NCBI RefSeq assembly: GCF_024436035.1
Contig: NZ_JANFNG010000006.1
Span: forward strand, 124,001-188,000
DNA: 64,000 nt
Source of the DNA: Streptomyces humicola
Lineage (GTDB): Bacteria > Actinomycetota > Actinomycetes > Streptomycetales > Streptomycetaceae
Direction of reading: 5' to 3'
Shown here: piece after piece, positions 30,901 to 58,909 of the stretch
Layout: the number at the start of each line of letters is the position of its first letter
Numbering within the stretch: the stretch's first letter is position 1
The notes under the pieces: generated by a model
The model's input: the letters and a program-made list of their open reading frames with translations, nothing else
What the model was told of the DNA's origin: nothing
Database searches by the model: none
Program-made: the position numbers and the translations under genes

Positions 30901-30919
30901 CAAGGCTGGAAGGGTTGCA

Positions 30920-31837: not shown

Positions 31838-31861
31838 CAACGCCTATAGGAGATGTGAGAC

Positions 31862-36788: not shown

Positions 36789-36917
36789 CTGGTTTCTCTC
36801 TCTCGAACTGCGACCTGCGCAGGGGGTTCACAGGCGTCGCCGTGCGCACCGAGAGGCCTGTGGTGCGGCCTCTTCGGTGAGCACGGCGACGCGGTAGGGC
36901 AGGTTTCGCCAGTACGT

Positions 36918-37754: not shown

Positions 37755-37850
37755 CAGGACCTCCCGGATAGAAGGGATTCTCGGGTTGTGGAATTTCTGT
37801 TAGCTTCGTCACGCTGCGCCTTGAATGACGCAGCGGGTAGGATCTGTTTT

Positions 37851-38576: not shown

Positions 38577-38598
38577 GCGGTCCGCCGCCGCGATCCGC

Positions 38599-39826: not shown

Positions 39827-40173
39827 CCGGCGACTGCCGACTGTGCGAGAGCCGCGGCGTCGGCCGGCGTCAACTCCTCGACGAGACCGAGCTCGAGCAG
39901 CCGCTCGCAGAGGTCGTGCACCGGCCGGCGGACCTCCGCGGCGGACAGTCCCAGCTTCTCGGTCACGCCGTCGACCACCTGGGCGAGGTTCCGGCGCCCG
40001 TCGATGAGCAGCCAGACCACACGCCCGTCGCTGTCGACCACGTAACGGCCGACCCAGGTCTCGAGCAGTACGCCGCCCTCGGTGCGCTCACTCAGTTCGG
40101 CCACCTGACCGGTCATGCGGGCGGTCACGTCCAGTCGGCGGACCAGGGTGGTCTTGTCGTTGACAGTGCTCAT
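39823..40173 (-). CDS. PqqD-family protein
   Basis: 116 residues of the PqqD family, a winged-helix fold used in RiPP pathways to bind precursor peptides. Pieces that fit are ETWVGRYVVDSDGRVVWLLIDGRRNLAQVVDGV and the C-terminal LCERLLELGLVEEL. No precursor peptide or radical SAM maturase is visible nearby. Here the gene is locked between a KS-ACP and an LLM oxidoreductase by ATGA overlaps on both sides. It may serve as a docking or scaffold protein for carrier-bound chains. That would be an unusual use and is inference. Confidence 0.8.
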   Translation of the reverse strand: MSTVNDKTTLVRRLDVTARMTGQVAELSERTEGGVLLETWVGRYVVDSDGRVVWLLIDGRRNLAQVVDGVTEKLGLSAAEVRRPVHDLCERLLELGLVEELTPADAAALAQSAVAG

Positions 40174-42548: not shown

Positions 42549-42631
42549 ATTAAGAACTCCTGGAGGATCAAGGTGCCCTGCGGCCACTCAGCAGGCGGCG
42601 GCAGCGCGACGTACGAAGACAAGCGTGAGAA

Positions 42632-42665
42632 ACCACCCGGCCGCGAAAGGGGCCGGTCCGGTGGT
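42632..42665 (-). terminator. hairpin between the A-PCP and KS genes
   Basis: ACCACC-CGGCC pairs with GGCCG-GGTGGT across a short loop, with a three-base bulge. It lies in the 182-bp gap after the A-PCP stop and before the KS start. It may terminate or attenuate the A-PCP transcript. No long T-run is present. Confidence 0.4.
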
Positions 42666-42730
42666 GCCGGCGAGGCCTTCAGCGCGCGGGCCGAGCGAAT
42701 GGCCGCTCGACAGCGGTCGACGGCACCGGC

Positions 42731-44799: not shown

Positions 44800-45939
44800 G
44801 TGGAATCCCCTGAAGCAAACTGGCTGCGGCCGCCGTTGAATGACCTTTCGGAGCTGCCACCGGTAGAGGTTCATTGCCACGGGTTCGGTGATGTCGACTT
44901 CTCGGACTTTACGAAGGTCGACCTCGACCGGCTCGAGGAATGGTGCGCACGCGAGGGCGTTTTGAGCCTGCCCACGATGTACCTCCACCGGTCCCAGCTG
45001 GCGGAGTTCGAGGCGTTCGTCCGCGAGTACCACCGTATGCGGCGCGACGGCCGGCTCCAGCACATCGCCGGCATCGCCCTGGAGGGCCCGCTGCTCGCCA
45101 GCCACGGCGGTACCCCCGCCGCGACGGTCTGGGCGCCCACGCGGCACGAGTGGGAGCGCCTCGCGGCGCTGGGGCCGCACGGTCTCATGTACACCGTGGT
45201 GTCGCCGGACGCATTCTCGCCCGCCTCGGAGCTGACCGTTCAGCCCGGCGCCCAGGAGACCGGCTTCGACTGGATCGTCCCCCTGCTCATGGCCCACGGC
45301 ATCCGCCCGGCACTCGGGCACTTCACCCGGGCCGACCCGGCGGCCAGCGCGGAACTCGTCGATGAAATAGTCGAGTTGGCCTGGCATGCCGAGTGGGCCG
45401 GCAACGGTGTCCGGGTCGTCACCGACCACCTCTTCAACGACATGCCGCTCAACATCCGGCACGCGTTCCGCACGTCACAGGCGCGCGCGGAGCGGGACGC
45501 GGTCATCGCCTCCTACGACCTGCCCTCGTGGACGCTCGACAGGATGGCGGAGATCGCCGGACCGGTGCCGGCGGCGATCATGCGCCAGGCGGCGGCGGGA
45601 CGGATCGGCGCCTGCATCAACTTCGATGGCGAGCACGTCGACCTGGCCATCGCGGCACGTGCGGTGCAACTGATGGGCGCCGAGAACTCGATGATGATGA
45701 CGGACCGCTGCGACTCGGCCCGGCTCGGCGGCCAGGGCCTGCACCACATCGAGGACAACGGCCTGTGGTACCAGCAGGACGGCATCGTCGCGGCAGGCTC
45801 CGTGCCCCTCGCCCGTCAGCAGGCCAACGCCCTGTCGCAGGGCCTCACGCCCGCGGAGGTCCACGCCCTCGCGACCGGCACGGCGCACCGGGTGTTCGGC
45901 ATCTCCGCCATGAAGGACCTGCGCCTCCCCACCGCCTGA
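44800..45939 (+). CDS. NagA-like amidohydrolase
   Basis: 379 residues resembling N-acetylglucosamine-6-phosphate deacetylase. The metal and substrate motifs are EVHCHGFGDVDFSDF near 28, GIALEGPLLASHGG near 90, GHFTRADPAASAE, NFDGEHVDLA near 270 and MMTDRCDSARLGG. The HxHG, the EGP glutamate, the HV histidine and the TD aspartate of that family are kept. Such enzymes hydrolyse an N-acyl (acetyl or formyl) group or a cyclic amide. It starts the seven-gene plus-strand operon, GTG 44800 behind GGGAG. A role in removing an acyl protecting group, for example one added by the formyltransferase, is inference. Confidence 0.78.
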   Translation: MESPEANWLRPPLNDLSELPPVEVHCHGFGDVDFSDFTKVDLDRLEEWCAREGVLSLPTMYLHRSQLAEFEAFVREYHRMRRDGRLQHIAGIALEGPLLASHGGTPAATVWAPTRHEWERLAALGPHGLMYTVVSPDAFSPASELTVQPGAQETGFDWIVPLLMAHGIRPALGHFTRADPAASAELVDEIVELAWHAEWAGNGVRVVTDHLFNDMPLNIRHAFRTSQARAERDAVIASYDLPSWTLDRMAEIAGPVPAAIMRQAAAGRIGACINFDGEHVDLAIAARAVQLMGAENSMMMTDRCDSARLGGQGLHHIEDNGLWYQQDGIVAAGSVPLARQQANALSQGLTPAEVHALATGTAHRVFGISAMKDLRLPTA

Positions 45940-45957
45940 CGAAACAAGGAGCCACCC

Positions 45958-46641
45958 ATGCTGGAAGCTCTCGACCGGCTGGTCGTCGACTGGTCGGACC
46001 TGCCCAAGGCCCGTGCACAGACCCGGGAGATCCTCACCGCGCTCGCCGAGGACAAGGCGACGCTGACCCAACTGCTGGAGCGCGCACGGGAGGAGGAGGA
46101 CCTCTTCGACAAATGCGAGCACCACCGGCTGCTCGACAAGCTGGTCATCTACGACGCCCTGGACCGCGGTTTCCGTATCCGCGTCCACGTCTCCACAGAG
46201 GACCACCGGGACCGGCCGCACGACCACCGGTTCACCTTCACGTCGCTGATCATGCGCGGACAGTACAAGCACGTGCGGCACGAACTGGTCGGGCGCCTGT
46301 CCGACGAGGACATCCCGCAGAACGCCCAGGACGACTTCGACGCCGTCCCGACCGACCTGCGGGTCGTGCCCCGGTTCGTCACCAACGAGCAGGCGGGCAA
46401 CTGCTACACGCTCCACCACAGCGAGATCCACACCACGTATACCACCCCCGACACCGTCTCCCTCTTCCTGCGCGGCCCCGCCGAGAAGGAGCGCTCGATC
46501 ATCACCGAGCGCGAGACCGGCCGCGTGTGGTGGCGCTTCGGCGAGGACAAGGAAAAGGCCGAACGCCGGGGCATCAAGCGCATCTCCAAGGACTATTTCG
46601 ACGAGCTCACCGGCCGCCTGCGTGCCATGGAGGTGCTGTGA
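45958..46641 (+). CDS. cupin-fold protein A
   Basis: 227 residues. The second half has a cupin pattern: PHDHRFTFTSLIMRGQYKH gives the H-x-H pair and the G-x-Y-x-H turn, and TLHHSEIHTTYT gives the second-motif histidine. The first ~70 residues are a helical extension (ILTALAEDKATLTQLLERA). It is a paralogue of the next gene, sharing the H-x-H-R-[FY]-x-F-T and H-x-x-x-H-T-T elements. Metal-dependent dioxygenase or isomerase chemistry is typical of such cupins, but no substrate is evident. Start ATG 45958 follows AAGGAG. Its stop overlaps the next start (TGATG). Confidence 0.75.
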   Translation: MLEALDRLVVDWSDLPKARAQTREILTALAEDKATLTQLLERAREEEDLFDKCEHHRLLDKLVIYDALDRGFRIRVHVSTEDHRDRPHDHRFTFTSLIMRGQYKHVRHELVGRLSDEDIPQNAQDDFDAVPTDLRVVPRFVTNEQAGNCYTLHHSEIHTTYTTPDTVSLFLRGPAEKERSIITERETGRVWWRFGEDKEKAERRGIKRISKDYFDELTGRLRAMEVL

Positions 46642-47372
46642 TGGCCACCCGCCCCGGCGACGACCTGCTGGACCCGACCCCGGCGATCCTGCTGGCACCG
46701 CCCTCCGATGCCGAAGTGACGATGGCCGAGGCCCTGATGGCCTCGCTGCCCACTGTTCGCTGGAACGAACTCGAGCGCGCGGCGGAGATCACCGACGCGA
46801 TCGCCCGCCGCCTGGGCGACGACCGCGCGCTGCTGCGCACCCTGGTGGCCCGCGCCATCCGGACGCCCGAGCTGCGGCAGAAGTTCGAGTGCCACGCTCT
46901 GGACGACAAGATCGTCATCTGGGACGACCAGGAGAAGGGCCTGCGCATCCGGCTCCGGCTCGCCAACACCGACCAGTACGAGCGGGTGCACAACCACCGG
47001 TACAGCTTCACGGCGTACATCCTGCACGGCGCCTACCAGCACACGCTCTACGCGACGGACCAGCCGCTCGACGAGACCGCCGACGTCTCACGGTTCTGGC
47101 CGTACTTCGTGCGCGAGGAACCGGCCGGCCGGGTCATCACGCTCGACCACGATCAGCTGCACACCACCATCACCGAGCCCGAGACCATCTCCCTGATGAT
47201 CCAGAGCCCGGCCCAGAAGCGCCGCGCCTTCATGATCCGGCGCGACAACGGGGACGTGTGGTACCGCTACGGCACCGCCGACGAGTCCGAGGAGCGCCGC
47301 TCCGAGGTGCTGATGTCCGACGAGCGGCTGCACCACTGGCTGTCGCGCCTCGAAGCGTTCGGCCTGCTGTGA
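46641..47372 (+). CDS. cupin-fold protein B
   Basis: 243 residues, paralogous to the gene before it. Matching elements are VHNHRYSFTAYILHGAYQH and LDHDQLHTTIT, and the helical N-terminus is about 20 residues longer. Both keep three possible metal-ligand histidines. Tandem cupins made from overlapping genes suggest a heterodimer, or two successive oxidations of related substrates. Neither resembles a bicupin storage protein. The final segment (FMIRRDNGDVWYRYG) parallels the equivalent WWRFG segment in A. Its function is unknown. Confidence 0.75.
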   Translation: MATRPGDDLLDPTPAILLAPPSDAEVTMAEALMASLPTVRWNELERAAEITDAIARRLGDDRALLRTLVARAIRTPELRQKFECHALDDKIVIWDDQEKGLRIRLRLANTDQYERVHNHRYSFTAYILHGAYQHTLYATDQPLDETADVSRFWPYFVREEPAGRVITLDHDQLHTTITEPETISLMIQSPAQKRRAFMIRRDNGDVWYRYGTADESEERRSEVLMSDERLHHWLSRLEAFGLL

Positions 47373-48139
47373 GCATGTCCTACGGCCACCTCGGCTACGG
47401 TCCGTTGCACTGGCAGCGGATCGATCTGTACGGGCCCGCAGAGCCGGAGGAGACCAGGGCGACGGTGGCGGGGGCGACCGTTTCGGCCGCCCCGGTGGTG
47501 CTGGTGCACGGCGGCTTCTGGCGGCACGACCGTACGGCGCAGGACCTGGAACCACTGGCCTGTGCCCTGGTCGGACGCGGTCACCGGGTCGCCGTGGTGG
47601 AGTATCGGCCGAGCTGGGACGGCGGCGTCTGGCCGGCCGCCGCCGACGACTGCCGTGCCGCGCTGCGGACGCTGGAGGAATCGGACACGAGCTGGGCCGG
47701 TGCGACGCTCGTCGGGCACTCGGCCGGCTGCCATCTGCTGCTCGCCTCGATCGCCGGGACGGCCCGCGGAGCCACCGCGGTGCTGCTCGCCCCGGTGACC
47801 GACCTCGCCGAGGCATCCCGCCTCGGGGTGGGCGGCGGATCCGTGGACGACTTCCTCGCCGCCCATCTGGCGGTCGGGGGCAGCCACAAGCAGGCCACCC
47901 CCGAGCCGCACCCGGCCGATCTCGCTTCGCTCACCGTCGTGAGCGCCGAGCACGACCAAGCCGTGCCAAGGGAATTGACGGACCTTCAGTTGGACGACTG
48001 GGTCGGGCGTGGGCTGCCTGTGACATCCGTGCAGGCGCCGGACGCCCGGCACATGCACCTGGTGAATCCGGAGCGCCCGGCCTGCTGCTCCGTCGTACTG
48101 CCGCTGCTGGCGGGCCACGCCTCGATCGTGGAGGAATGA
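47369..48139 (+). CDS. alpha/beta hydrolase, formamidase-like
   Basis: About 256 residues with the HGGFW oxyanion motif near residue 45, the nucleophile GHSAGCHLLLA near 115, an Asp in SAEHDQAVP and a His in ARHMHLVNP. The HGG ... GHSAG arrangement is that of the hormone-sensitive-lipase and arylformamidase groups. The start is GTG 47369, overlapping the cupin stop (GTGA), with ATG 47375 two codons later. Given the formyltransferase in unit 2 and the NagA-like protein here, deformylation is worth testing, but an esterase is equally possible. Confidence 0.82.
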   Translation: MSMSYGHLGYGPLHWQRIDLYGPAEPEETRATVAGATVSAAPVVLVHGGFWRHDRTAQDLEPLACALVGRGHRVAVVEYRPSWDGGVWPAAADDCRAALRTLEESDTSWAGATLVGHSAGCHLLLASIAGTARGATAVLLAPVTDLAEASRLGVGGGSVDDFLAAHLAVGGSHKQATPEPHPADLASLTVVSAEHDQAVPRELTDLQLDDWVGRGLPVTSVQAPDARHMHLVNPERPACCSVVLPLLAGHASIVEE

Positions 48140-48146
48140 GAGAACG

Positions 48147-49127
48147 ATGACGGCGACCACCGCCGAGGCAGACCTGGGCACGCACCTCGTGCCGGAGACG
48201 AACATGTCCGCCGTCAGCCCCAGGGCGTTCGACTCCCTGACCGCGGACCCGCGCAAGCGGGCCGCGTACCGGCTGGACCCCTACGCCCGTGAGGGGCTCG
48301 ACCTGTTCCGCTCGCCCGGCGACCGCGCCTGGCTCTACACGACCACCTTCGTGGTGATCAAGCCGGACGCGGTCGTCGGCCGGCGCGGCGGGCTGGTTCT
48401 GGACATTCTGGGGGAGGAGGGCTGGCAGCCGATCGCGGCCCGGCCGTTCACCTTCGACCCGCTGCTGACCAGGGAGATCTGGCGCTACCAGTTCAACGCC
48501 GCATCCCGGCAGCGAATCGCGGTGGTGGATCACCTGCTGGGATCGAGCCCCTCGCTGCTGGTTCTGCTGCGCGACACTCGCCGGGCAGACGGGCTGCCCG
48601 CCAGCGTCCGGCTGACCGCGGCGAAGGGGGGCGCCGATCCGCAGGCGGCTCACGCGCGCGATCTGCGTACCCGGTTCGGCAGGGTCAACGGCCTGTTCAA
48701 CTTCATCCACACGGCTGATGAACCGGCCGATCTGGTGCGGGAGTTGCGGCTGTTCTGCTATCGGACCGGCACCGACTGGCTCCGCGCCGCCCTCACCGCG
48801 ACACCGTCGTCCACCGGCGAGGAATGTCCGGCTCGAAGCCTGCTCGCCGGCCTCGAGGCCGACGCTCCGACCCACGACCTGGACTCGGCGCAGAGCCTCA
48901 CCCGGCTGGCCGTCCGCTCCGACGTCTGGGGGAGCCTCGCCCGCGAACACGGCGCCCATGACGCCGTACGACGGTGGCTGTCGGCCCTGGACGAGTCCGA
49001 CCTCCCGCCGGGCACGGCCCGATGGGACGTCCTGTCGGTCCTGACAGACTGGATCGACTGCAACGAGCCAGGCGTCGCGCCCCTGTTGGCGACCGTCTCG
49101 GCGACCGACTGGAGGAAAGAAGCGTGA
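48147..49127 (+). CDS. NDK-like protein with C-terminal extension
   Basis: 326 residues. The middle (about 65-215) reads as a nucleoside diphosphate kinase fold: FVVIKPDAVVGRRGGLVLDIL for the opening strand and helix, and RVNGLFNFIHTADEPADLVREL, where the His aligns with the phospho-histidine of NDK (N-x-x-H-x-S-D). The usual enzyme is about 140 residues, so the N-terminal 60 and C-terminal 110 residues are extra and unrecognised. It probably uses the NDK fold for a pathway-specific phosphotransfer, nucleotidyl binding or sensing. The gene lies in the amidohydrolase/cupin operon and overlaps the HAD gene. Confidence 0.7.
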   Translation: MTATTAEADLGTHLVPETNMSAVSPRAFDSLTADPRKRAAYRLDPYAREGLDLFRSPGDRAWLYTTTFVVIKPDAVVGRRGGLVLDILGEEGWQPIAARPFTFDPLLTREIWRYQFNAASRQRIAVVDHLLGSSPSLLVLLRDTRRADGLPASVRLTAAKGGADPQAAHARDLRTRFGRVNGLFNFIHTADEPADLVRELRLFCYRTGTDWLRAALTATPSSTGEECPARSLLAGLEADAPTHDLDSAQSLTRLAVRSDVWGSLAREHGAHDAVRRWLSALDESDLPPGTARWDVLSVLTDWIDCNEPGVAPLLATVSATDWRKEA

Positions 49128-49798
49128 CGTCCCTTCCCCTCGCTCCACAAGCCCTCGTCTTCGACTGCGACGGGCTCCTGGTCGACACCGAGGTTTGCTG
49201 GACCAGAGCCGAGACCAAGATCTTCGCCGCGCACGGTCACGACTTCGGGCACGAGCAGAAGGCACTGGTGATCGGCCGTACGCTGGCGGGCGCGGGTGAG
49301 GCGATGGCCGACTACTTCGGCAGGCCCGGAGCCGGCCCCGAACTCGCCGCGGAGCTCCTCGAGCTCGTCCGGCAGGAACTGGCCGGCGGCGCCGAAGCCC
49401 TGCCCGGGGCCGCCGAGCTGGTCAATGCCTGCGCGCGGGCCCTCCCGGTCGCGGTCGCCAGCAACAGCCCCCGCGAACTTCTCGACACCGCCCTCACCTC
49501 GGCCGGCCTCGCCGACCTCTTCCCGGTCTCCTTCGCGGCCGACGAGGTGGCGGACGCCAAGCCCGCCCCCGACCTCTACCTGAAGGCGTGCGGCGCGTTG
49601 GGGGCGGCGCCGGGGGCCTCGGTGGCCTTCGAGGACTCGGCCACCGGGATCGCCTCGGCCCGGGCCGCGGGGCTGTTCGTCGCAGTGGTGCCGTCGCTGC
49701 CGGGGAGCGAGCTCGACCACGACTGGCTCGGCGGCAGTCTGGCCGAACCCGAACTGGTGAAGTGGGCGGCGGGACTCGGGTATGACATCGCCCCGTGA
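49124..49798 (+). CDS. HAD-superfamily phosphatase/phosphomutase
   Basis: 224 residues of the beta-phosphoglucomutase-like HAD group: LVFDCDGLLVDTE near the N-terminus (nucleophile and acid Asp), PVAVASNSPRELLD (motif II Ser), ADAKPAPDLYLKA (motif III Lys) and VAFEDSATGIASARAAG (motif IV). It should hydrolyse or move a phosphate on a small molecule. GTG 49124 behind GGAGGAAAG overlaps the NDK-like gene (GTGA), linking a possible kinase and a phosphatase in one translational unit. It resembles the HAD half of the CYTH-HAD fusion at 26556. Confidence 0.9.
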   Translation: MTSLPLAPQALVFDCDGLLVDTEVCWTRAETKIFAAHGHDFGHEQKALVIGRTLAGAGEAMADYFGRPGAGPELAAELLELVRQELAGGAEALPGAAELVNACARALPVAVASNSPRELLDTALTSAGLADLFPVSFAADEVADAKPAPDLYLKACGALGAAPGASVAFEDSATGIASARAAGLFVAVVPSLPGSELDHDWLGGSLAEPELVKWAAGLGYDIAP

Positions 49799-50030
49799 CC
49801 TGCTGGTCTGTCTGTGCTCCCGGGTGAGCGAGGGCGAGTTGATCGAGGCCATCCGCGCCGGGCACCGGGACGTCGCCGCGCTGCGCGAGGCCACCGGGGC
49901 CAACACCGGTTGCGGCGACTGCCTGGAGGACCTGGAGGCCCTGCTGACCGACGAGGCGGAGCAGAACGCCCCGGCGGAAGGCGGCCCGCAGAAGTCTGCA
50001 CTGCACCATGCTGAGGGCGGACCCCTCTAG
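49782..50030 (+). CDS. BFD-like [2Fe-2S] protein
   Basis: 82 residues with the bacterioferritin-associated ferredoxin/(2Fe-2S)-BFD pattern: CLCSRVSEGELIEAI (C-x-C) and TGCGDCLEDL (C-x-x-C). The four cysteines would hold a [2Fe-2S] cluster. It overlaps the HAD gene by 17 bases and ends the operon. It may pass electrons to an iron enzyme nearby: the cupins, the 2OG oxygenase at 50255 or the diiron protein at 50977. The C-terminal 25 residues are a poorly conserved acidic tail. Confidence 0.8.
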   Translation: MTSPRDLLVCLCSRVSEGELIEAIRAGHRDVAALREATGANTGCGDCLEDLEALLTDEAEQNAPAEGGPQKSALHHAEGGPL

Positions 50031-50254: not shown

Positions 50255-50950
50255 ATGGCTCTCGACACCGACGGTTTCGCCCTCATCGACCTGCCCCCCA
50301 CCTCGGCCGAGGTACTCGCCAGCTACGAGGACCTGCCGGTCGACGCCTACATGGGCCATGGCACCCGGTACAAGAAGTTCTCGCAGTACCGGTTGTCGGC
50401 GGCGCGGGACGGTGCGGGATGGGACTTCGAACGGCTGCCGCACCGGGACTACACCGCGTACCGGAAGTTCAACCCGGTCGGCGGCGGCAAGCGGCGCACC
50501 TACCTCCCGGTGGCGGTGGACTTCACGCCGCTGATCGACGCGGGGGCGCGGTCGCTCGGGCTGGACCGGAGCGAGGACTGGCAGATCAATCTGCACCAGA
50601 ACCGCACCTGTGCCGCACCCGGACGCCCCGGTCCCCTCACCCCGGAGGGCGTGCACCACGACGGGCACGAATTCGTGATGATCGGCGTGCTGCGCCGGGA
50701 GCGGATCGCCGGCGGCGAGACCCGGCTGTGGCGGCCGGACGCCCCGCAGCCGTTCTGGACCGGGGTGATCGGGCCCGACCAGGCCGTACTCCTCGACGAC
50801 CGGGCGATCGCCCACGACGTCACCGATGTGGTGGCGGCCGGTGACGAGCCGGGCCACCGGGACATCTTCATCGTCGCCTTCTCCCGCTGGAGCGAGAAGT
50901 GGTACGGCGACGAGCACGACGCGGCGGCCCTGACGGACAGCGAGAGCTGA
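50255..50950 (+). CDS. 2-oxoglutarate/Fe-dependent dioxygenase
   Basis: 231 residues of the 2OG-Fe oxygenase family found among amino-acid hydroxylases. The iron facial triad is visible as H-x-D in EGVHHDGHEFVMIGVL (about residue 135) and the distal His in DDRAIAHDVTDV. Nearby are the conserved LHQNRTCA and the late Arg (HRDIFIVAFSRW) for oxoglutarate. Family members hydroxylate free amino acids such as isoleucine or threonine precursors. Start ATG 50255 follows AGGAAGGA, 224 bp after the preceding operon. It is the first gene of unit 3. The substrate is probably a free amino acid. Confidence 0.85.
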   Translation: MALDTDGFALIDLPPTSAEVLASYEDLPVDAYMGHGTRYKKFSQYRLSAARDGAGWDFERLPHRDYTAYRKFNPVGGGKRRTYLPVAVDFTPLIDAGARSLGLDRSEDWQINLHQNRTCAAPGRPGPLTPEGVHHDGHEFVMIGVLRRERIAGGETRLWRPDAPQPFWTGVIGPDQAVLLDDRAIAHDVTDVVAAGDEPGHRDIFIVAFSRWSEKWYGDEHDAAALTDSES

Positions 50951-50976
50951 GCAGCACAGAAACGGTTCTTTTCTGT

Positions 50977-52056
50977 ATGGACACCATGGACACCGACTTC
51001 ACTGCCCTGTTGGACAACAGCCTGCCGGCCGCGCTCCGGGCACTGCTCGCCCTGCCCGCCGACGACCTGCGGCGCGCCAGTGGGGACTACGGCTTCCGCG
51101 GTGAACTGGCCGCCGCCTGCCGCGCCCTGACGGCACGCGCGTACGGCAAGGCAGAGCACACCGCGCTGGAAGAGGTGCACGCGGTGCTGGCCCTGATCTA
51201 CGACCGGGACTTCTCCGGGGTCGCGGTCACCGACACCGACCGCGAGGAGCAGCCGATCCTGCGGGACGTCGCCGCCCTCCTGGAACACGCCGTACTGCGT
51301 CACGAGACGGAGCGCGTACCCGCCCGGGAGCTGACCTGCTACCCGGAGACAGGACCGGAGTACGTGCGCTGGCTCAAGGCGATGGTGAGCCGGCATCCCG
51401 CAGGCTGGCACCCGCTCTACCACCAGCGCCTGGCCGAGCACGGCAGCGTCGAGGACCTGCGACTGCTGCTCGCTCAGGAGACCAATCTCGACCCGCGCTT
51501 CGACGACATCCTCGCCGCGATGCAGATCGGCCGGCAGGGCGCGGAGAAGATGGAGATCGCCGCCAACTACTGGGACGAGATGGGCAACGGCGACCACACC
51601 CTGGTGCACACCACGCTGTTCGGCCGAGCGCTGGAGGCGGTCGGCGCCGATCCGCGCTACATACGCGAGACGTTCCTGCCGGAGGCCGCCGTCTCCGGCA
51701 ACATCTCCTCCTTGCTGGCGCTCTCCCGCCGCCACTACTACAAGGCGGTCGGCTACTTCGGGGTCACCGAGTACCTGGCCCCGCGGCGCTTCCGGTGCGT
51801 CGTCGACGCCTGGCGCGGTCATGACCTCGACGAGGTCGGCATCGTCTACCACGACCTGCACATCGGGGTGGACGCCGGACACGCGGCCGGCTGGTTCAAG
51901 AACGTGGTCAGCCCGCTGGTGACCGCGGACCCGCGGGTCGGCCGGGAGATCGCGCTGGGCGCCGCGATCCGGCTCAACACCTCGAAGGACTACCTCGACG
52001 CCCTGCTGCGGCGCATGCACGCCACCGAGCGGGTCGCCGCCTCGGCGGCCTCCTGA
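50977..52056 (+). CDS. haem-oxygenase-like diiron protein (HDO type)
   Basis: 359 residues with the all-helical haem-oxygenase-like fold and candidate diiron ligands in order: LLAQETNLDP (Glu), AEKMEIAANYWDEMGNGDHTLVHT (Glu/Asp/His), and DEVGIVYHDLHIGVDAGHAAGW (Asp/His pair). This superfamily includes N-oxygenases and C-C or C-N cleaving enzymes in natural product pathways. A weak ribosome site precedes ATG 50977, and a second ATG lies three codons later (50986). It follows the 2OG oxygenase by 26 bp. A test should ask whether it oxygenates nitrogen or cleaves an amino acid. Confidence 0.78.
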   Translation: MDTMDTDFTALLDNSLPAALRALLALPADDLRRASGDYGFRGELAAACRALTARAYGKAEHTALEEVHAVLALIYDRDFSGVAVTDTDREEQPILRDVAALLEHAVLRHETERVPARELTCYPETGPEYVRWLKAMVSRHPAGWHPLYHQRLAEHGSVEDLRLLLAQETNLDPRFDDILAAMQIGRQGAEKMEIAANYWDEMGNGDHTLVHTTLFGRALEAVGADPRYIRETFLPEAAVSGNISSLLALSRRHYYKAVGYFGVTEYLAPRRFRCVVDAWRGHDLDEVGIVYHDLHIGVDAGHAAGWFKNVVSPLVTADPRVGREIALGAAIRLNTSKDYLDALLRRMHATERVAASAAS

Positions 52057-52070
52057 AGGGAGGACCACCG

Positions 52071-52949
52071 GTGCGCCAAGACACCTGGCATCCCGCCGAC
52101 TTCGTCAAATACGAGGCGCTGGGCAACAACTACGTCGTCGTCGACCCGCGGTACGCCGCCTTCGCACCGCTGCCTGAGAACGTCCGGCGGGTGTGCGACC
52201 GGAACCGGGGCCTCGGCGCCGACGGCCTGCTGTACGGACCGTTGCCCGCCGCCGACGGCTTCCGGCTGCTGACCTTCAACGCGGACGGCTCCGAGTGCGG
52301 CGGCAGCGGCAACGGACTGCGGATCTTCGCCTGGTACCTGCGCGAATCCGGCCACACCGAAGCGGACGTGATGACCCTGCGCACACCCTCGGGGACGTCC
52401 ACGGCGACGATCGTCGACGCGGACAGCGGCGTTGTGCGCGTCGGCCTCGGCACCGCCCGCCCCGACAGCGGCGCCGTCGGGGCGCGCGGTCCGGCCCGCA
52501 CTATGCTGCGCGAGCCCCTGGACGCCGCGGGCCGGCGGTGGGAGGCCGGCTGCGTACGGCTGGGCAGCCCGCACTGCGTGCTCCCCCTCGCCGACGCTCC
52601 CGCCGACGCGGGGCTGGCGCGCCGGGTGGGCGCCGCGGTCAGCAGCCATGACCTCTTCCCCGACCGGATCAACGTGGAACTGCTGCACGTCACCGACCGC
52701 GAGAACCTCAGCATCGAGGTCTTCGAGCGGGTGGCCGGGCATGTGCCGGCGTCCGGCAGCGGTGCCGCCGCCGCGGCGTACGTGGCCCACGCGCGCGGCC
52801 TGTCCGGCCCCCGGGTCACGGTGCACATGCCCGGCGGCCGGGTCACCGTGGACATCGGCGAGGACGGAGCGGTGTCCCTCACCGGCGAAGTCGGTCCGGT
52901 ACTGCGCGGGCACTGGGCGCCGCGGCTCGCACGATCGCTGTCGGGGTGA
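52071..52949 (+). CDS. DapF-like isomerase with Cys-to-Ser pair
   Basis: 292 residues of the diaminopimelate epimerase fold: a KYEALGNNYVVVD opening, the substrate segment LTFNADGSE, then GSPHCV and PDRINVELLHV. In DapF two cysteines act as acid and base in C-G-N-G and A-C-G-x-G. Here both are serine: SGNG (Ser79) and ASGSG (Ser228). Cys76, three residues before Ser79, is not in the catalytic position. The pocket glutamate of GAGET reads His224. So it is unlikely to be a normal epimerase. It may be a dehydratase or isomerase, much as Ser/Thr replacement changes proline-racemase relatives, or a binding protein. GTG 52071 follows GGGAGGA. Confidence 0.85.
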   Translation: MRQDTWHPADFVKYEALGNNYVVVDPRYAAFAPLPENVRRVCDRNRGLGADGLLYGPLPAADGFRLLTFNADGSECGGSGNGLRIFAWYLRESGHTEADVMTLRTPSGTSTATIVDADSGVVRVGLGTARPDSGAVGARGPARTMLREPLDAAGRRWEAGCVRLGSPHCVLPLADAPADAGLARRVGAAVSSHDLFPDRINVELLHVTDRENLSIEVFERVAGHVPASGSGAAAAAYVAHARGLSGPRVTVHMPGGRVTVDIGEDGAVSLTGEVGPVLRGHWAPRLARSLSG

Positions 52950-52953
52950 CCCG

Positions 52954-54057
52954 ATGACGACCGCGCTCACCGACGACGGGTACCCCATGCACCGCTGGTT
53001 CTTCGAGGACGCGGCCGGCCGCTACGACCTGGACCTGGGCGACAGCTACCTGGACTGCGGATCGGTGGACGACCTGCCGTACCCCGCCGGCCTGTCGCTG
53101 GACTACGGCAGTAACCGCGGCAGCGTCCCGCTGCGCGAGCTCGTCGCCGGCCGCTACGGCCGGGACGCCGCCGACGTGGGCGTCACCCATGGCGCCCAGG
53201 AGGCGCTCTACCTGCTCCACCGGGTCCTGCTGCGCCCCGGCGACCACGTGGTGGCCTTCACCCCCGGGTGGCCGCAGGCCTGGGAGGTGCCCACCGAACT
53301 GGGCTGTCGGGTCGACCGCGTGGGCACCACCCCCGACGGCGACCCGGACATCGCGCGCGCGGTGCGGCTGATCGGCCCGCGCACCAGGGCCGTGGTGCTC
53401 AACTCCCCCTGCAATCCCACAGGACGGCGTGTGCCGGAGCGGGACGTGGCCTCGCTGGTCACCGCGCTGCGCGCGCACGGCAGCCACCTGATCCTGGACG
53501 AGGAGTACGTGGCCGACCTCGCCCGCGACTCGCTGCTCGGCCGCTACGAACGGGCCGTCTCGGTCTCCGGCGTCTCCAAGGTGTACGGCTTCCCGGGCCT
53601 GCGCACCGGCTGGATGTGCGGGCCCGCGGACCTGGTGGCGGCCGCCATGGAGCGCAAGCACTCCACCACCCTCGCCAACTCCGTGCTCACCGACGCCCTG
53701 GCGGCCGAGGTGCTGCGGCGGCACGACCACTACCTCGACCGCTACCTGCGGCTGACGTCCGGCGGCATCGAGGTGCTGCGCGACTGGGTGGCGCGGCACC
53801 CGGACGTCTTCCGGCTGCTGAAGCCGCAGGGCACGCCGTTCGCCTGGCTTGTGATGACCGTCGCCGGCACTTCGCTGGCCTTCTGCCGTGAAGTGCTGCG
53901 CGCCAGGGTGCTCCTGATGCCAGCGGAGGTCTTCGGCACCGAGCGCGGGCTGCGGATCACCTTCGCCCGCGAGGAGTCCGTCCTGCGCGAGGGGCTGCGC
54001 CGCATCGATGCGGTGCTCGCCGCGCACGGCCACAGCGCGGGCCGGGCGGACCGTTGA
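52954..54057 (+). CDS. PLP enzyme, class I/II aminotransferase fold
   Basis: 367 residues with the fold type I pattern: SLDYGSNRGSVPLRELVA, VTHGAQEALYLLHRVL, LNSPCNPTGRRVP, LDEEYVADLAR (the pyridine Asp replaced by a DEEY motif to be checked) and SGVSKVYGFPGLRTGW with the Schiff-base Lys. The pattern resembles aminotransferases and also capreomycidine-synthase-like cyclases, which use this fold for a beta-replacement on a hydroxylated arginine. With a 2OG oxygenase and a DapF-like protein upstream, a hydroxylate-then-cyclise logic is possible. This is inference. It starts four bases after the previous stop. Confidence 0.85.
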   Translation: MTTALTDDGYPMHRWFFEDAAGRYDLDLGDSYLDCGSVDDLPYPAGLSLDYGSNRGSVPLRELVAGRYGRDAADVGVTHGAQEALYLLHRVLLRPGDHVVAFTPGWPQAWEVPTELGCRVDRVGTTPDGDPDIARAVRLIGPRTRAVVLNSPCNPTGRRVPERDVASLVTALRAHGSHLILDEEYVADLARDSLLGRYERAVSVSGVSKVYGFPGLRTGWMCGPADLVAAAMERKHSTTLANSVLTDALAAEVLRRHDHYLDRYLRLTSGGIEVLRDWVARHPDVFRLLKPQGTPFAWLVMTVAGTSLAFCREVLRARVLLMPAEVFGTERGLRITFAREESVLREGLRRIDAVLAAHGHSAGRADR

Positions 54058-55406
54058 CCACGACACACACCGCCGACCTGTGGCCGCGGCTGCTGCCACC
54101 CTGCGCCACGGCCGACGACCCGCGCGCGGCGGTCCGGCTGTTCGACGGCGTGAAGGGAGCCGACGGCCCTTGGCGTCCGGTGCGGCCGCTGCTGGTGGGC
54201 GCGGACACGTACCGGGACCTGGTACGGCTGTCCCGGCGCGCGGCCGAACTGGTGCTGTCCGCCGCCCGGCGCCGGGCGGACACGGCCCGCGACCTGCTGG
54301 CGGCGCTCGGCTCCCGGCCGGAGGACTACCCACTGCTCGACCCCGGCGACCCGGTCGAAGACCGGCTGCTGACCGCGGTCCGCCCGGACATCCTCATGGA
54401 GGGCGGCGTCGCGCGGTTTGTGGAGCTGAACGTTGACGGGGCACTGGGCGGCGTACTGCAGGCCGATCTGCTCAGCGGCCGCTTCCTCGACCGCTACCGT
54501 CGCTGCGGCCTCGCCAGCCGGCTCGGTCTGTCCGCGGCGCCGTCCGCCGTGCGGGCCAGGGCCGAGGCGCTGCGCACCTTCCTCGGACTGCGCCGGGACG
54601 CCGCCGCCCCGGTGCTCATGCCGCACTTCACCGGGGGCCATCTGCCGGGGCTCGACGACTGCGCCCGGTTCGCCGACTGGCTCGCGCCCGTCTTCCGGCA
54701 CGCGCGGGACCACGGCATGCGGATGTTCACCCATCCCCTGACCGCGCTGACCACCGCACCCGACGGGACCCTGCTGGCCGGCGGGAGAGCGGTCGGCGCG
54801 GTGTTCCGGACCTTCGTCAGCCACGGGGAGCCGCCAAGCGCCGGACTGACGGCGCTCCGCCGGGCGCTGGACGCCGGCGCCGTGCGAATGTTCACCCCGG
54901 AGAGCACCATGCTGCTCACCAACAAGATCACGCTGGCCTGGCTCTGGGACGACCTGGACCTGCTCGACCCGGCGGACCGGCGGCTCGTCGAGACCCACGT
55001 GCCCAGGACCGTTCGGCTCCGCCCCGTCGACCGCGACACCCTGGGCCTCGCCGTGCGGGACCGCGCCGGCTGGGTGCTCAAGCCTGCCAACGGCTTCGGC
55101 GGCAGCGGTGTCGTCGTCGGCGCCGCTGCCGCCGACGCGGACTGGCGGACGGCGCTCGACCACGCGGCCCGGCAGGGCGGGCACGTGCTCCAGCGGTACG
55201 TCGACGCCGACCGGACGGCCATGCGGTTCGTGCGCACCGCGGACGGCGAGGTCGCCGACGCCGAGGTGCCGTACGTGCTCGGACCGTTCCTCTACGGACT
55301 GCGGGGCAGCGGCCTCCTGGTGCGGCACGGCACGCCGGCCGCGGCCGACGTGCTCAACGCCGGCCGGGGAGCTGCCATGAACACCGCCCTGCTGGCCGGT
55401 GGGTAG
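54054..55406 (+). CDS. circularly permuted-type ATP-grasp enzyme
   Basis: 450 residues. The order of motifs is unusual for ATP-grasp: FVELNVDGALGG (the metal-binding E-x-N) comes at about 122-135, and VLKPANGFGGSGVVVG, the ATP-binding lysine loop, near 340-355. This matches circularly permuted, glutathionylspermidine-synthase-like enzymes that form amide bonds. The TTG start overlaps the PLP gene stop (TTGA). It should couple a carboxylate to an amine with ATP. Together with the ATP-grasp at 57566 it supplies two candidate peptide bonds, so unit 3 can build a di- or tripeptide without an NRPS. Confidence 0.78.
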   Translation: MTTTHTADLWPRLLPPCATADDPRAAVRLFDGVKGADGPWRPVRPLLVGADTYRDLVRLSRRAAELVLSAARRRADTARDLLAALGSRPEDYPLLDPGDPVEDRLLTAVRPDILMEGGVARFVELNVDGALGGVLQADLLSGRFLDRYRRCGLASRLGLSAAPSAVRARAEALRTFLGLRRDAAAPVLMPHFTGGHLPGLDDCARFADWLAPVFRHARDHGMRMFTHPLTALTTAPDGTLLAGGRAVGAVFRTFVSHGEPPSAGLTALRRALDAGAVRMFTPESTMLLTNKITLAWLWDDLDLLDPADRRLVETHVPRTVRLRPVDRDTLGLAVRDRAGWVLKPANGFGGSGVVVGAAAADADWRTALDHAARQGGHVLQRYVDADRTAMRFVRTADGEVADAEVPYVLGPFLYGLRGSGLLVRHGTPAAADVLNAGRGAAMNTALLAGG

Positions 55407-55409
55407 CCG

Positions 55410-56741
55410 ATGTCCCGAGGCCTGACAGACCGTCCGAGGCACGCGCTGAAGCTGGATTTCCGGTTCCGTACCTTCCAGGTGTCGGTACTCGGCTCGAACC
55501 TCGCAGACGGCATATACCTCGTCACCATCCCCCTGCTCGCCCTGTCGCTGACCGGTTCCGCGCTCGTCGTGAGCGCGGTCGGCGTGGCGTTGCGCGCGCC
55601 GTGGCTGCTGCTCACCCTGCCCGCCGGCGTGGTGGTGGACCAGTTCCCCCCGCTCACCGTGATGCGGGTGGCGTCCATGACCCGGCTGCCGCTGGTCGCG
55701 GTGCTGTGCGTGCTCGCCTGGGAGCGGCTGCTGCCCGTCTGGGGGCTGGTGACCGCGGCCTTCCTGATCGCCGGGTGCGGCACCTTCATCGACGTGGCGG
55801 CCCAGTCCTTGGTCCCGCGGATGGTCCCCAAGCCGCTGATCCCGCGGGCCAACGCCAACCTGCAATCGGGCCTGACGCTAACCCAGCAGTTCGCCGGCCC
55901 CGCGCTGGGCGGCGTGCTGGCGGCGGTCACCGGCGCCGGGATCGCGCTGTCGACCACGCTGTACGCGGCGACCCTGTCCGGCCTGCAGGCGCTGCAACGG
56001 CGGCTGCCCGGGGGCGGTGACCGGGACGCGGGCGCCACGCCGGGCGGACGGTTGACGCTGCGGGCGATGTTCCGGGACCTGGGCGAGGGCGCCCGGTACT
56101 TCCGTACCCGGCGCGATCTGATCGGCCTGGCGGTGGTCGCCGCGACCGGCAACCTGGCGTTCGCCTCGGTCACCACGATGCTGCCGCTGTGGGTGGTCGC
56201 CCCGGCCCGCCTGGGACTGCCCAAGTCGGCGCTGGGGTTCATCGCCGCGGCGCCTGCGGTGGGCGGCCTGCTCGCCGGGGCGGTGGCGGCGCGGATGCTG
56301 AGCCGGTTCGGCGGGCGCGCGGTGCTCGGCTTCTGCGCGCCGGCCGTCGGTCTGTGCTTCGTGCTGATCGCGGTGCCCAGCCCGTTCTCTGCCTTCGGGG
56401 CGATGGCGTGCTACGGGGGGTTCACCGTGACGCTGAACGTGATGAGCATGTCGCACCGCCAGTCGACCATCCCGGAGCACCTGTTCGGCCGGGTCAACGC
56501 CGTCTACCGGTGGATCGTGCTGGGTGTCTCCCCGTTCGGCGCCGGGCTCGGCGGCCTGGTGGCCGACCACTTCGGTCTGGCGGCCGTCTTCCTGTGCGCC
56601 GGGGCGTTCGCCGGCGGCTCCGGGGTCCTGCTGCCCGCCCTGCTCTTCCGCGCTTCACCTCCGGATCCGGACCGGAGCCAGGACCCCGGACCGGACCGAC
56701 GTACCGACACATCGATGTATCGACTAGGACGTGACGCATGA
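55410..56741 (+). CDS. MFS exporter
   Basis: A 443-residue major facilitator protein, about twelve membrane segments. Its N-terminal half is like the enterobactin-exporter-type MFS group (LLTLPAGVVVDQFPPLTVM for the loop 2-3, FIDVAAQSLVPRMV, ARANANLQSGLTL-type segment). The last 20 residues are a charged tail (PDPDRSQDPGPDRR). It lies within the unit 3 operon between the ATP-grasp and deacetylase genes and overlaps the latter (ATGA), so it probably exports the unit 3 peptide. No other exporter is in this operon. Confidence 0.88.
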   Translation: MSRGLTDRPRHALKLDFRFRTFQVSVLGSNLADGIYLVTIPLLALSLTGSALVVSAVGVALRAPWLLLTLPAGVVVDQFPPLTVMRVASMTRLPLVAVLCVLAWERLLPVWGLVTAAFLIAGCGTFIDVAAQSLVPRMVPKPLIPRANANLQSGLTLTQQFAGPALGGVLAAVTGAGIALSTTLYAATLSGLQALQRRLPGGGDRDAGATPGGRLTLRAMFRDLGEGARYFRTRRDLIGLAVVAATGNLAFASVTTMLPLWVVAPARLGLPKSALGFIAAAPAVGGLLAGAVAARMLSRFGGRAVLGFCAPAVGLCFVLIAVPSPFSAFGAMACYGGFTVTLNVMSMSHRQSTIPEHLFGRVNAVYRWIVLGVSPFGAGLGGLVADHFGLAAVFLCAGAFAGGSGVLLPALLFRASPPDPDRSQDPGPDRRTDTSMYRLGRDA

Positions 56742-57499
56742 CCGATCCGCTCCTCGAACTGCCCTCCGACTGGCAGCGCGCCCTGGCCATCGTCGCCCAC
56801 CCCGACGACGTGGAGTACGCGGCCGCGGCCGCCGTCGCCACCTGGACCGACCAGGGCAAGGAGGTCGTCTACCTGATGGCCGGTCGGGGCGAGTGCGGCA
56901 TCGCCGGCGTGGATCCGGAGAAGGCCAAGCCGATCCGGGAGGCGGAACAGCGGGCCAGCGCGGCGGTGGCCGGGGTGACCCGGGTCGAGTTCCTCGACCA
57001 CCCCGATGGCCTGATCGAGTACGGTCCGCGGCTGCGCCGGGACTTCGCGCACGCCATCCGGCGGCACCGGCCGGAACTCCTGGTAACGCTCAATCACCAC
57101 GACCACTGGCGGGGGGTGTCCTGGAACACGCCGGATCACCGCCACGTCGGCCGGGCCGCACTAGACGCGGTGGCGGACGCTGCCAACGAGCACCTGTTCC
57201 CGCAGGAGGGCCTGGATCCGTGGGAAGGCGTGCGCTGGCAGGCGGTGGCCAACTCCCCTTACCCGACCCACGCTGTGGACGTGACGTGGGCGGTGGAACG
57301 CGGCGTACGGGCGGTGCTAGCCCACGACACCTACCTGCGCGCCCTCACCGACGAGGACCCGGAGGAGTACGTACGCGCCTTCCTGGGGCGGAACCTGGCC
57401 GCCGCTGGCGCGCGGTTCGGCGGCCGGCCCGCGGTGCCGTTCGAGGTGTTCCACCGCGACCCCTACCGCGAGCGCGCCGGCCAGGTCCACTACCGCTGA
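56738..57499 (+). CDS. PIG-L family deacetylase
   Basis: 253 residues of the LmbE/PIG-L family. The zinc site AHPDDVEYAAAA is near residue 20, the second metal ligand is in NTPDHRHVGRAALDA near 130-145, and the rest of the fold is present. These enzymes remove N-acetyl groups in mycothiol and glycopeptide synthesis, or act as amidases in other pathways. Here it may remove a protecting acyl group after the ATP-grasp steps, or open a lactam. Start ATG 56738 overlaps the exporter stop (ATGA), with AGGACG upstream. Confidence 0.88.
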   Translation: MTDPLLELPSDWQRALAIVAHPDDVEYAAAAAVATWTDQGKEVVYLMAGRGECGIAGVDPEKAKPIREAEQRASAAVAGVTRVEFLDHPDGLIEYGPRLRRDFAHAIRRHRPELLVTLNHHDHWRGVSWNTPDHRHVGRAALDAVADAANEHLFPQEGLDPWEGVRWQAVANSPYPTHAVDVTWAVERGVRAVLAHDTYLRALTDEDPEEYVRAFLGRNLAAAGARFGGRPAVPFEVFHRDPYRERAGQVHYR

Positions 57500-57565
57500 C
57501 CCGCGGCCCGTGTCCCGTCGGTCGAAGCCCGGGTCGTGGGCCCCGAACTCGAAAGGAGCCGCGCT

Positions 57566-58909
57566 GTGCACATCGCGGTCGTAGACGCCAACCCCCCTTC
57601 GCTGCGGGCCCTCCGGCTCGCGAAGACGGCCGGGCACCGAGTGACCTTCCTCCAGCCGCCGCTGACCCAGTACGCGCTCACCGGCGAGAACCTAAGCATC
57701 GTCTACTCGGCGGACACCCTCGTCGACGGGATCGACACCACAGACCCGCAGGCCGTGGTCGCCGCGCTCGGCGAGTGCCACGCGCGGCACCCGATCGACG
57801 TGGCCGTGGCATTCCAGGAGCTGGCGGCCGAGGCCGTCGCCCACGCCTGCCGCGAGCTGGGCCTGCGCGGTACGGCACCGGAGGCGGTCCTCATGGCACG
57901 GCGCAAGGACCGTTGCCGGGCGGCGCTGGAAACCGCCGGGCTGGACTCCGCCGCCTACGTGCTCGCCGCCGACCAGGACGCGGCGCTCGCCGCGGCGGAG
58001 CGCATCGGCTACCCAGTGGTCCTCAAGCCGCCGTCCGGCAGCGCCAGCCTGCTGTCCCACGTGGCCCGTGACACGGCCGGGGCGCGGAAGGCCGCCGCCG
58101 ACATCCTCGCCGGCCAGGACGCGGTGCCACCGCACTGGGTTACCCAGTTCAGCCGGGGCGTGCTGGTCGAGGAGCTGCTGGTGGGCCGGATGGTCTCGGT
58201 GGAGATCGGCGCCCGGGACGGCGCGTTCTTCCCGTTCTGCGTCACTGGCAGGTTCCGATCACCGCGCAACGAGGTGATCGAACTGGGGTCGTGCGTCCCG
58301 GCGGACCTGGCCCCGGTGCAGAGCGCGGCGTGCGTGGCGTACGCCGAAGCGGTCTGCCGCGCGATCGGCGCCGACTTCGGCATCTTCCACCTGGAGATCA
58401 TGCTGACCGAACGCGGCCCGGTGCTGGTCGAGTTCAACCCGCGCATCATGGGCGGCGGCCTGCCCAACTGCTACCGGCACGCCACCGGCCAGGAGATCTA
58501 CGCCTCCTTCCTGGACCTGGTGACCGGTGCACCGGTACGCGTCCCCGAAGGCTTCGCGGGGTGCACCGCCGTCTTCGTGGTCACCGCCGAGACCGGCGGG
58601 CGCCTGCCGAAGACGGCGTCCCTCGCCCCGCTGCACGACGACGACGGCGTGCTCGAGGTGCTCGGCTTCGACACCTACCGGACCGGGCCCGGCCGCCTGG
58701 TCGTGCCAGGCCAGACCGTGGCCCGCTTCATCCTGCGCGCCCCGGACCGCAGGACGGCCGTCGCCCGGGGCACGCGGCTGCTGCACCGGCTGGAGGAGAC
58801 GCTGGGGCTGACCTTGATGACGGGCGACAAGGACAGCGAGGGCGGGACGGCGATGCTTCATACCCCTCCATCGCACTGCCGATCACGAGCCTCAGTCGAC
58901 CTGACGTGA
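57566..58909 (+). CDS. ATP-grasp ligase, carboxylate-amine type
   Basis: About 447 residues: an N-terminal Rossmann-like preATP domain (HIAVVDANPPSLRALRLA), YPVVLKPPSGSASLLSHV for the ATP lysine, VLVEELLVGRMVSVEIG, and FHLEIMLTERGPVLVEFNPRIMGGG for the metal-binding E-x-N. It resembles L-amino-acid ligases and carnosine-synthase-like enzymes that make dipeptides. Start GTG 57566 follows AAAGGAG. The final ~20 residues (HTPPSHCRSRASVDLT) are unlike the fold's usual end, and the gene stops at the island's debris zone, so the C-terminus may have been replaced by read-through after a deletion. It is the last gene of unit 3. Confidence 0.85.
   Translation: MHIAVVDANPPSLRALRLAKTAGHRVTFLQPPLTQYALTGENLSIVYSADTLVDGIDTTDPQAVVAALGECHARHPIDVAVAFQELAAEAVAHACRELGLRGTAPEAVLMARRKDRCRAALETAGLDSAAYVLAADQDAALAAAERIGYPVVLKPPSGSASLLSHVARDTAGARKAAADILAGQDAVPPHWVTQFSRGVLVEELLVGRMVSVEIGARDGAFFPFCVTGRFRSPRNEVIELGSCVPADLAPVQSAACVAYAEAVCRAIGADFGIFHLEIMLTERGPVLVEFNPRIMGGGLPNCYRHATGQEIYASFLDLVTGAPVRVPEGFAGCTAVFVVTAETGGRLPKTASLAPLHDDDGVLEVLGFDTYRTGPGRLVVPGQTVARFILRAPDRRTAVARGTRLLHRLEETLGLTLMTGDKDSEGGTAMLHTPPSHCRSRASVDLT

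Follow-up and report, generated by a model that had tools for sequence, protein, structure and literature searches.

A carrier-free gene unit in Streptomyces humicola predicted to build a peptide on a nitrocyclopropyl amino acid

We analyzed a stretch of 64,000 nucleotides from Streptomyces humicola (the window; positions 124001-188000 of contig NZ_JANFNG010000006.1, within the 7.07 Mb genome of assembly GCF_024436035.1), concentrating on a unit of eight adjacent genes. These genes encode, in order, an Fe(II)/2-oxoglutarate (2OG) enzyme, a haem-oxygenase-like diiron oxygenase (HDO), a protein with the fold of diaminopimelate epimerase (DapF), a pyridoxal phosphate (PLP) enzyme, an ATP-grasp ligase (AG1), a major facilitator superfamily (MFS) exporter, a PIG-L family protein and a second ATP-grasp ligase (AG2). 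Judging from sequence comparison and predicted structures, we consider it likely that the product of the unit is a short, exported peptide antimetabolite, built without carrier proteins on a nitrocyclopropyl amino acid.

The triad of HDO, 2OG enzyme and DapF-like protein is already known from the biosynthesis of belactosin and hormaomycin, the only characterized product families with this triad that are named in a review of the subject (PMC10764440). The core chemistry is therefore known, but its combination with a PLP enzyme, a PIG-L protein and two ATP-grasp ligases is not found in the searchable literature. A preliminary description of this DNA regarded the unit as an undescribed system, which applies to this variant but not to the triad itself.

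The two oxygenases

The HDO matches HrmI (PDB 9n1a) with a phmmer E-value of 1.2e-117 over 331 residues, and its Glu, Asp and His residues of the diiron type (E100, E165, E198, H208, H289, H292, D296 and H299) are invariant among 47 sequences. The 2OG enzyme matches PDB entries 9dq0 and 8jms (phmmer E 1.5e-108). By eye, these chains hardly differ from the 2OG protein of locus L046, with which the window enzyme shares 67% identity. The iron ligands of the window enzyme (H134, D136 and H187) and its 2OG-binding residue R202 are invariant in 48 sequences, and at the position of BelL residue 136 it has His, as opposed to Arg in HrmJ.

HrmI and BelK convert L-lysine to 6-nitronorleucine, which HrmJ and BelL cyclize to 3-(2-nitrocyclopropyl)alanine, or Ncpa (PMC10764440); the six-electron oxidation by HrmI has also been described (PMC13108848). 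Given the strong homology to these assayed enzymes, we predict that the HDO is a lysine N-oxygenase and that the 2OG enzyme is a nitroalkane cyclopropanase. Because the oxygenase pair is of the known HrmI/HrmJ type, the amino acid produced by the unit is most likely Ncpa. The product of ScBelL, from S. cavourensis, is cis-Ncpa in vitro (PMC10764440; our statements on ScBelL, BelM and HrmT rest on this review). Since the window's 2OG enzyme resembles the ScBelL group more than BelL in sequence, the Ncpa is probably the cis form.

The preliminary description had proposed a heavily oxidized amino acid. An oxidized amino acid is indeed expected, although Ncpa is a more exact prediction than a merely heavily oxidized one. 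It had also anticipated that deletion of the DapF-like gene would cause a hydroxy amino acid to accumulate. This is not expected, because the oxygenase pair predicts the path from lysine through 6-nitronorleucine to nitrocyclopropylalanine.

The bes pathway, too, combines an HDO with a PLP enzyme and an ATP-grasp ligase. It might therefore be supposed that the HDO cleaves lysine as BesC does, and that the 2OG enzyme performs a hydroxylation or halogenation leading to an unsaturated amino acid. The HDO does show a weak match to BesC (19 bits against a cut-off of 500; E 0.01). However, HrmI is matched better by more than 100 orders of magnitude, and the 2OG enzyme falls among the nitrocyclopropane enzymes. 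For these reasons we rejected a BesC-type pathway, which we regard as highly improbable.

A DapF-like protein without the catalytic cysteines

The predicted model of the DapF-like protein (pLDDT 93.5) has DapFs as its closest folds (Foldseek match 9mro, E 1.2e-31). Residues S79 and S228 occupy the positions of C73 and C217 in E. coli DapF and, in the model, lie at the start of the two helices whose first residues in DapF are the catalytic cysteines; the preliminary description had correctly read this pair as Ser/Ser. We aligned 58 cassette copies of the protein (53 distinct, as about five are near-duplicates) to E. coli DapF. The C217 position is Ser in every copy, while the C73 position is Ser in 55 and Asn in the other 3. 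By contrast, both cysteines are present in all 29 readable canonical DapFs, including that of the S. humicola genome itself. Residues N11, N64, N75, N190 and E208 are invariant in the 58 cassette proteins, R209 is conserved in 57, and N157 is variable. A different cysteine, Cys76 (window 52296-52298; Val70 in E. coli), lies three residues before the lost catalytic position and is found in 58/58 cassette proteins but 0/29 canonical ones.

In Corynebacterium glutamicum DapF, both cysteines are required, in that an Ala mutant of either abolishes activity; the equivalents of N64, N157, N190, E208 and R209 hold the L-amino-acid end, and the helix ends hold the reacting carboxylate (PMC5296763). The conservation pattern thus suggests that the DapF-like protein has kept L-amino-acid binding and lost the proton-transfer thiols. 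L-6-nitronorleucine or Ncpa would fit such a site, with the nitro group standing in for the second carboxylate and the C6-H located at the reacting C-H. Deprotonation of C6 is reported to be critical for cyclization (PMC10764440). With the L-amino-acid site kept, the thiols lost and this deprotonation critical, a role of the DapF-like protein at the nitro-bearing C6 is plausible.

A different role has been suggested for the third gene shared by the hormaomycin and belactosin clusters, hrmT or belM, namely that it encodes a diaminopimelate epimerase possibly supplying lysine (PMC10764440). (In our comparison, the belactosin-like loci L237-L239 served as stand-ins for BelM.) Applied to the window, this suggestion would make the DapF-like gene an ordinary epimerase that raises the supply of lysine, the presumed precursor, and it would agree with the DapF fold, with a TIGR00652 score above the equivalog cut-off and with the retained residues of the recognition site. 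However, neither catalytic cysteine occurs in any of the 58 cassette copies, Cys-to-Ala mutants of DapF are inactive (PMC5296763), and the genome already has a canonical DapF with both cysteines. We consider lysine supply very unlikely, since both catalytic cysteines are lost from a protein that keeps its L-amino-acid site, and we rejected a simple epimerase role because the cysteine pair is missing throughout the cassette copies.

That DapF partners have generally lost both catalytic cysteines is not described in the searchable literature and looks new. It presents a clear and testable puzzle, in that the lysine-supply suggestion conflicts with the protein's active site. The substrate that we propose can be synthesized and directly assayed.

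The PLP enzyme and the absence of BelN

To place the unit in context, we used 47 loci from a scan of named-species genomes with an alignment of the 2OG enzyme; their 2OG proteins are at least 42% identical to that of the window (42-79%). A cassette PLP enzyme is encoded in 29 of these loci and a BelN-like molybdenum reductase in the other 18; no locus has both, and none has neither. Among the eight window genes, Pfam detects no BelN molybdenum reductase. As the two enzymes are mutually exclusive, we propose that the PLP enzyme takes the place of the nitro-reducing step, and we infer the nitro amino acid to be its substrate. This clean division into a reductive (BelN) branch and a PLP branch looks new. 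We do not extend it to hormaomycin, whose own cluster is probably outside the 47 loci.

The highest-scoring NCBIfam models for the PLP enzyme are GntC (209.5 bits; cut-off 415) and the capreomycidine synthase VioD (199.5 bits; cut-off 390.9), with both scores below the cut-off, and GntC also ranks first for a Proteobacterial copy. In a phylogenetic tree, the cassette PLP proteins are monophyletic (support 1.0) and stand apart both from 25 VioD-family proteins and from the different aminotransferase that is found beside BelN. The catalytic Asn, Asp, Tyr, Lys and Arg are invariant in the cassette enzymes. One option for the chemistry is a GntC/VioD-like loss of the beta-proton with ring opening; transamination is another.

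The second option corresponds to a plain aminotransferase that either converts the nitro amino acid to its 2-oxo acid or regenerates the amine, in which case the peptide would simply contain Ncpa. The Aminotran_1_2 fold and the invariant, usual catalytic residues are as expected for such an enzyme. However, curated families place the enzyme nearest to two cyclodehydratases, GntC and VioD, and not to aminotransferases, the cassette enzymes form a clade of their own, and they are swapped one-for-one with BelN, which acts at the nitro end. We therefore view a plain aminotransferase as rather unlikely, though worth keeping in mind.

Ligases, PIG-L and export

Domain libraries (Pfam and NCBIfam) give only a weak glutathionylspermidine-synthase match for AG1, and a sequence search of the PDB gives none; the protein was placed by fold search only. 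Its AlphaFold2 model (pLDDT 91) matches glutathione synthetase and glutathionylspermidine synthetase (Foldseek 3kal, E 8.4e-18; VIA Z 27.0 for YgiC and 23.4 for Cp1B), and this fold bears out the earlier label of permuted ATP-grasp. Residues R110, D112, E124 and N126 of AG1 are invariant. Both in their order and in how far apart the members of each pair stand, they resemble R139, D141, E163 and N165, the acyl-phosphate residues of Cp1B, a ligase of the E-64 pathway (PMC12568646). AG1 thus shares its fold and an Arg-x-Asp...Glu-x-Asn set with Cp1B, glutathione synthetase and glutathionylspermidine synthetase, although sequence identity to the Cp1B/glutathione synthetase group is about 15%. Like AG1 as we interpret it, Cp1B-type ligases are used in carrier-free peptide natural products. 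A scan of the genome contigs with the single AG1 sequence found no match. In other clusters, too, the AG1 gene adjoins an MFS gene, together with AG2 in L102 and with nonribosomal peptide synthetase (NRPS) genes in L103-L106.

The second ligase, AG2, matches an L-amino acid ligase (1.6e-12) and BacD (3.9e-11) in the PDB. Belactosin and cystargolide are also built by ATP-grasp ligases (PMC11427300). The idea of a small peptide made by such ligases, put forward in the preliminary description, is supported by these assignments. The family of the PIG-L protein suggests that it removes an acyl group. Together with the three-enzyme route, the ligases and the PIG-L protein would constitute a short, carrier-free system for nitrocyclopropyl peptides.

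Proposed pathway

On the basis of strong homology, we propose that the HDO would oxidize L-lysine to 6-nitronorleucine (step 1), and that the 2OG enzyme would then link C4 and C6 to give Ncpa, probably in the cis form (step 2). For the next two steps we draw on patterns of conservation. In step 3, the DapF-like protein may bind the same molecule; its L-amino-acid end would lie in the retained recognition site, its nitro group would occupy the position of diaminopimelate's second carboxylate, and the protein might help to deprotonate or re-face C6. In step 4, the PLP enzyme, in place of a belactosin-type BelN reductase, would modify the nitro amino acid. In step 5, which follows from the families of the proteins, AG2 and AG1 would add partner amino acids, the PIG-L protein would take off a protecting or acyl group, and the product would leave the cell through the MFS protein.

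Several considerations weigh against parts of this scheme. The window HDO shares only about 36% identity with those of the ScBelL-type loci, and a few residue changes can switch the reaction of an HDO. The C6 of 6-nitronorleucine reportedly loses its proton without any enzyme at pH 7.5, and BelL itself accelerates this deprotonation (PMC10764440), so a dedicated nitronate enzyme may be unneeded. One locus, L212, lacks a DapF-like gene. Serine is a poor base, and the DapF-like protein could have a role in binding only. Finally, the PLP enzyme reaches neither the GntC nor the VioD cut-off and may simply be an ordinary aminotransferase.

A more specific version of the scheme can be imagined, which we think unlikely to be correct in full. 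Here, a branch of DapF-like proteins would have been repurposed to form or re-face the C6 nitronate, reading the NO2 group as the diaminopimelate carboxylate, and the PLP enzyme would open or rearrange the nitrocyclopropane, yielding a new class of antimetabolites in Streptomyces and Proteobacteria. The PLP enzyme would remove the beta-proton, the C4-C6 bond would be cleaved with the nitronate as leaving carbanion, and the ring would close again via O or C. We know of no enzyme that carries out such a PLP-dependent opening or rearrangement of a nitrocyclopropane.

Organization of the gene unit

The eight genes (Table 1) are all on the + strand and span positions 50255-58909, with successive intergenic distances of 35, 14, 4, -4, 3, -4 and 66 bp. 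Spacing and synteny indicate that they are one operon, in agreement with the nearly gapless operon recognized in the preliminary description.

Table 1. Genes of the unit, with positions in the window
Predicted product	Position	Strand	Basis of assignment
Fe(II)/2OG enzyme, BelL/HrmJ/ScBelL family, predicted nitroalkane cyclopropanase	50255..50950	+	phmmer; Pfam 2OG-Fe_Oxy_2
Haem-oxygenase-like diiron N-oxygenase (HDO), HrmI/BelK family, predicted to convert L-lysine to 6-nitronorleucine	about 50986..52056	+	phmmer; Haem_oxygenas_2
DapF-fold protein, S79/S228 for catalytic Cys, family-wide Cys76	52071..52949	+	DAP_epimerase; TIGR00652; model
Fold-type I PLP enzyme, own clade, nearest GntC/VioD	52954..54057	+	Aminotran_1_2; NCBIfam; tree
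Circularly permuted ATP-grasp ligase, glutathione-synthetase type (ATP-grasp 1, AG1)	54054..55406	+	predicted fold
MFS exporter (predicted)	55410..56741	+	MFS_1 PF07690, E 5.7e-26
PIG-L family amidase/deacetylase	56738..57499	+	PF02585, E 3.1e-25; BshB1-like
ATP-grasp L-amino-acid ligase (ATP-grasp 2, AG2), BacD/DdaF-like	57566..58909	+	ATP-grasp_4, PF13535, E 6.2e-11

The tabulated start of AG2 is a GTG codon, and an alternative start lies at 57536. Third-position GC is 0.90-0.93 in seven of the genes. The DapF-like gene is missing from this list, in which an overlapping open reading frame (ORF) was picked, but it is backed by a TIGR00652 score of 177.7 bits (cut-off 114.65). Pfam finds no PP-binding, AMP-binding or KS domain anywhere in the unit. 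The unit is therefore not an operon of the NRPS or polyketide synthase (PKS) type, and the earlier observation that it has no carrier protein holds. A BFD-type 2Fe-2S gene lies upstream at 49782-50030, 224 bp from the unit. Scans for promoter and terminator consensus sequences found none, but such a scan has little weight for a high-GC actinomycete.

Occurrence in other genomes

All eight genes recur in identical order, with 59-84% identity, in L035 and L036, where the PIG-L protein is the most conserved of the unit (83-84%). They are also all present in L202 (Streptomyces sp. 378), whose contig coordinates are identical to those of L035. Locus L201 (S. indiaensis) has the first seven genes and then reaches the contig end, and L037/L038 have six, without AG1 and the MFS gene. 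Because the same gene order recurs in L035, L036, L201 and L037/L038, a chance run of ORFs is excluded. A search for the same gene order in other genomes had been suggested at the outset; the genes stay together (L035, L036 and L201), and we rejected the possibility that they are scattered among unrelated loci in relatives.

A relative of the HDO is present in 31 of 395 genomes of the same family. The 47 loci belong to Actinomycetota (Streptomyces, Kitasatospora, Micromonospora, Lentzea, Nocardia and Actinokineospora) and Proteobacteria (Pseudomonas, Halomonas, Pantoea, Glaciimonas, Thiomonas and Rhodoferax). Amino acids that carry a nitrocyclopropane are rare, and these loci reveal a much wider, cross-phylum group. 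The HDO gene lies beside the 2OG gene in all 47, and a DapF-like gene is present in 46. The sole locus without one, L212 of Streptomyces sp. C10-9-1, carries BelN; a second locus in this strain, L206, has a full PLP-type cassette.

In Proteobacteria (L233, L236, L240, L242 and L244), the cassette comprises HDO, 2OG enzyme, ThiF-like protein, PLP enzyme, ArgC-like reductase, DapF-like protein and an acetyltransferase. The last is ArsN/PAT-like and nearest to enzymes of arsinothricin and phosphinothricin resistance. A 4Fe-4S ferredoxin is encoded upstream in L236 and L240, and an EamA-type exporter is found in L240 and L242. The ArgC-like protein may be an enzyme or a spare target. Taken together, these neighbors point to an amino-acid antimetabolite as the common product.

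Comparison with known clusters

Like the window, the belactosin A cluster (belK, belL, belM, belN and the ATP-grasp gene belU) has the HDO/2OG/DapF-like triad, a lysine-derived nitrocyclopropyl intermediate and peptide bonds made by ATP-grasp ligases without NRPS. Unlike it, the eight window genes include neither a BelN reductase nor beta-lactone genes, and have instead a GntC/VioD-like PLP enzyme, a PIG-L protein and a ligase of the glutathione-synthetase type. The order of the HDO and 2OG genes is also reversed, and the 2OG enzyme is about 46% identical to those of belactosin-like loci.

The hormaomycin cluster (hrmI, hrmJ and hrmT) shares with the window an HrmI-type HDO (E 1e-117), a DapF-like partner and a nitro group that is presumably retained (in the window, up to the PLP step). 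It differs in that hormaomycin is assembled by NRPS, HrmJ has Arg136 where the window enzyme has His, and no PLP cassette gene has been described for it.

The ScBelL-type loci (S. cavourensis; L046 and others) have the same HDO-2OG-DapF-PLP cassette, with a 2OG enzyme about 67% identical to that of the window, but have an NRPS module (condensation-adenylation-thiolation, or C-A-T) and a gene resembling serine hydroxymethyltransferase (SHMT) downstream, and no ATP-grasp ligases. In L046-L049, L055, L056, L058 and L059 the four-gene cassette is followed by the C-A-T module, and in several of them by the SHMT-like gene; we found no product for these loci in the searchable literature.

Neighboring genes

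The window contains two further blocks of genes near the eight-gene unit (block 2). Block 1 (26556-34850) includes SbnA and SbnB (2,3-diaminopropionate), an AurF-like N-oxygenase, an ornithine-carbamoyltransferase-like enzyme, LysE, a formyltransferase-like protein, a class III aminotransferase and a CYTH-HAD protein. Block 3 (44800-50030) has two cupin-like genes and NDK-like, HAD and BFD genes. The gene set of blocks 1 and 3 may be reminiscent of amino acids of the oxyvinylglycine type.

It is conceivable that block 2 is a subcluster for a larger, hybrid product that also requires blocks 1 and 3, such that the peptide would not be the final molecule. The three blocks are contiguous in genome G227 and close together in G336, and locus L232 of S. 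monomycini also has block 3 genes beside block 2. However, genomes G194 and G216 have the eight-gene unit but lack blocks 1 and 3 (neither genome contains the marker gene of block 3 anywhere), and the cassette occurs elsewhere with quite different partners. In our estimation, a hybrid product falls a little short of an even chance.

In L036 and L070 (G194), by eye, the unit has a different modular setting, beside genes resembling S-adenosylhomocysteinase, aspartate-semialdehyde dehydrogenase and glutamate mutase subunits, together with a desaturase and two further ATP-grasp ligases. In the window, NRPS/PKS genes lie between blocks 1 and 3 on the - strand (35511-44566) and encode A-T and KS-T proteins, a luciferase-like monooxygenase and a carrier protein. 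This stretch looks like a separate insertion, because G227 has no such genes between blocks 1 and 3.

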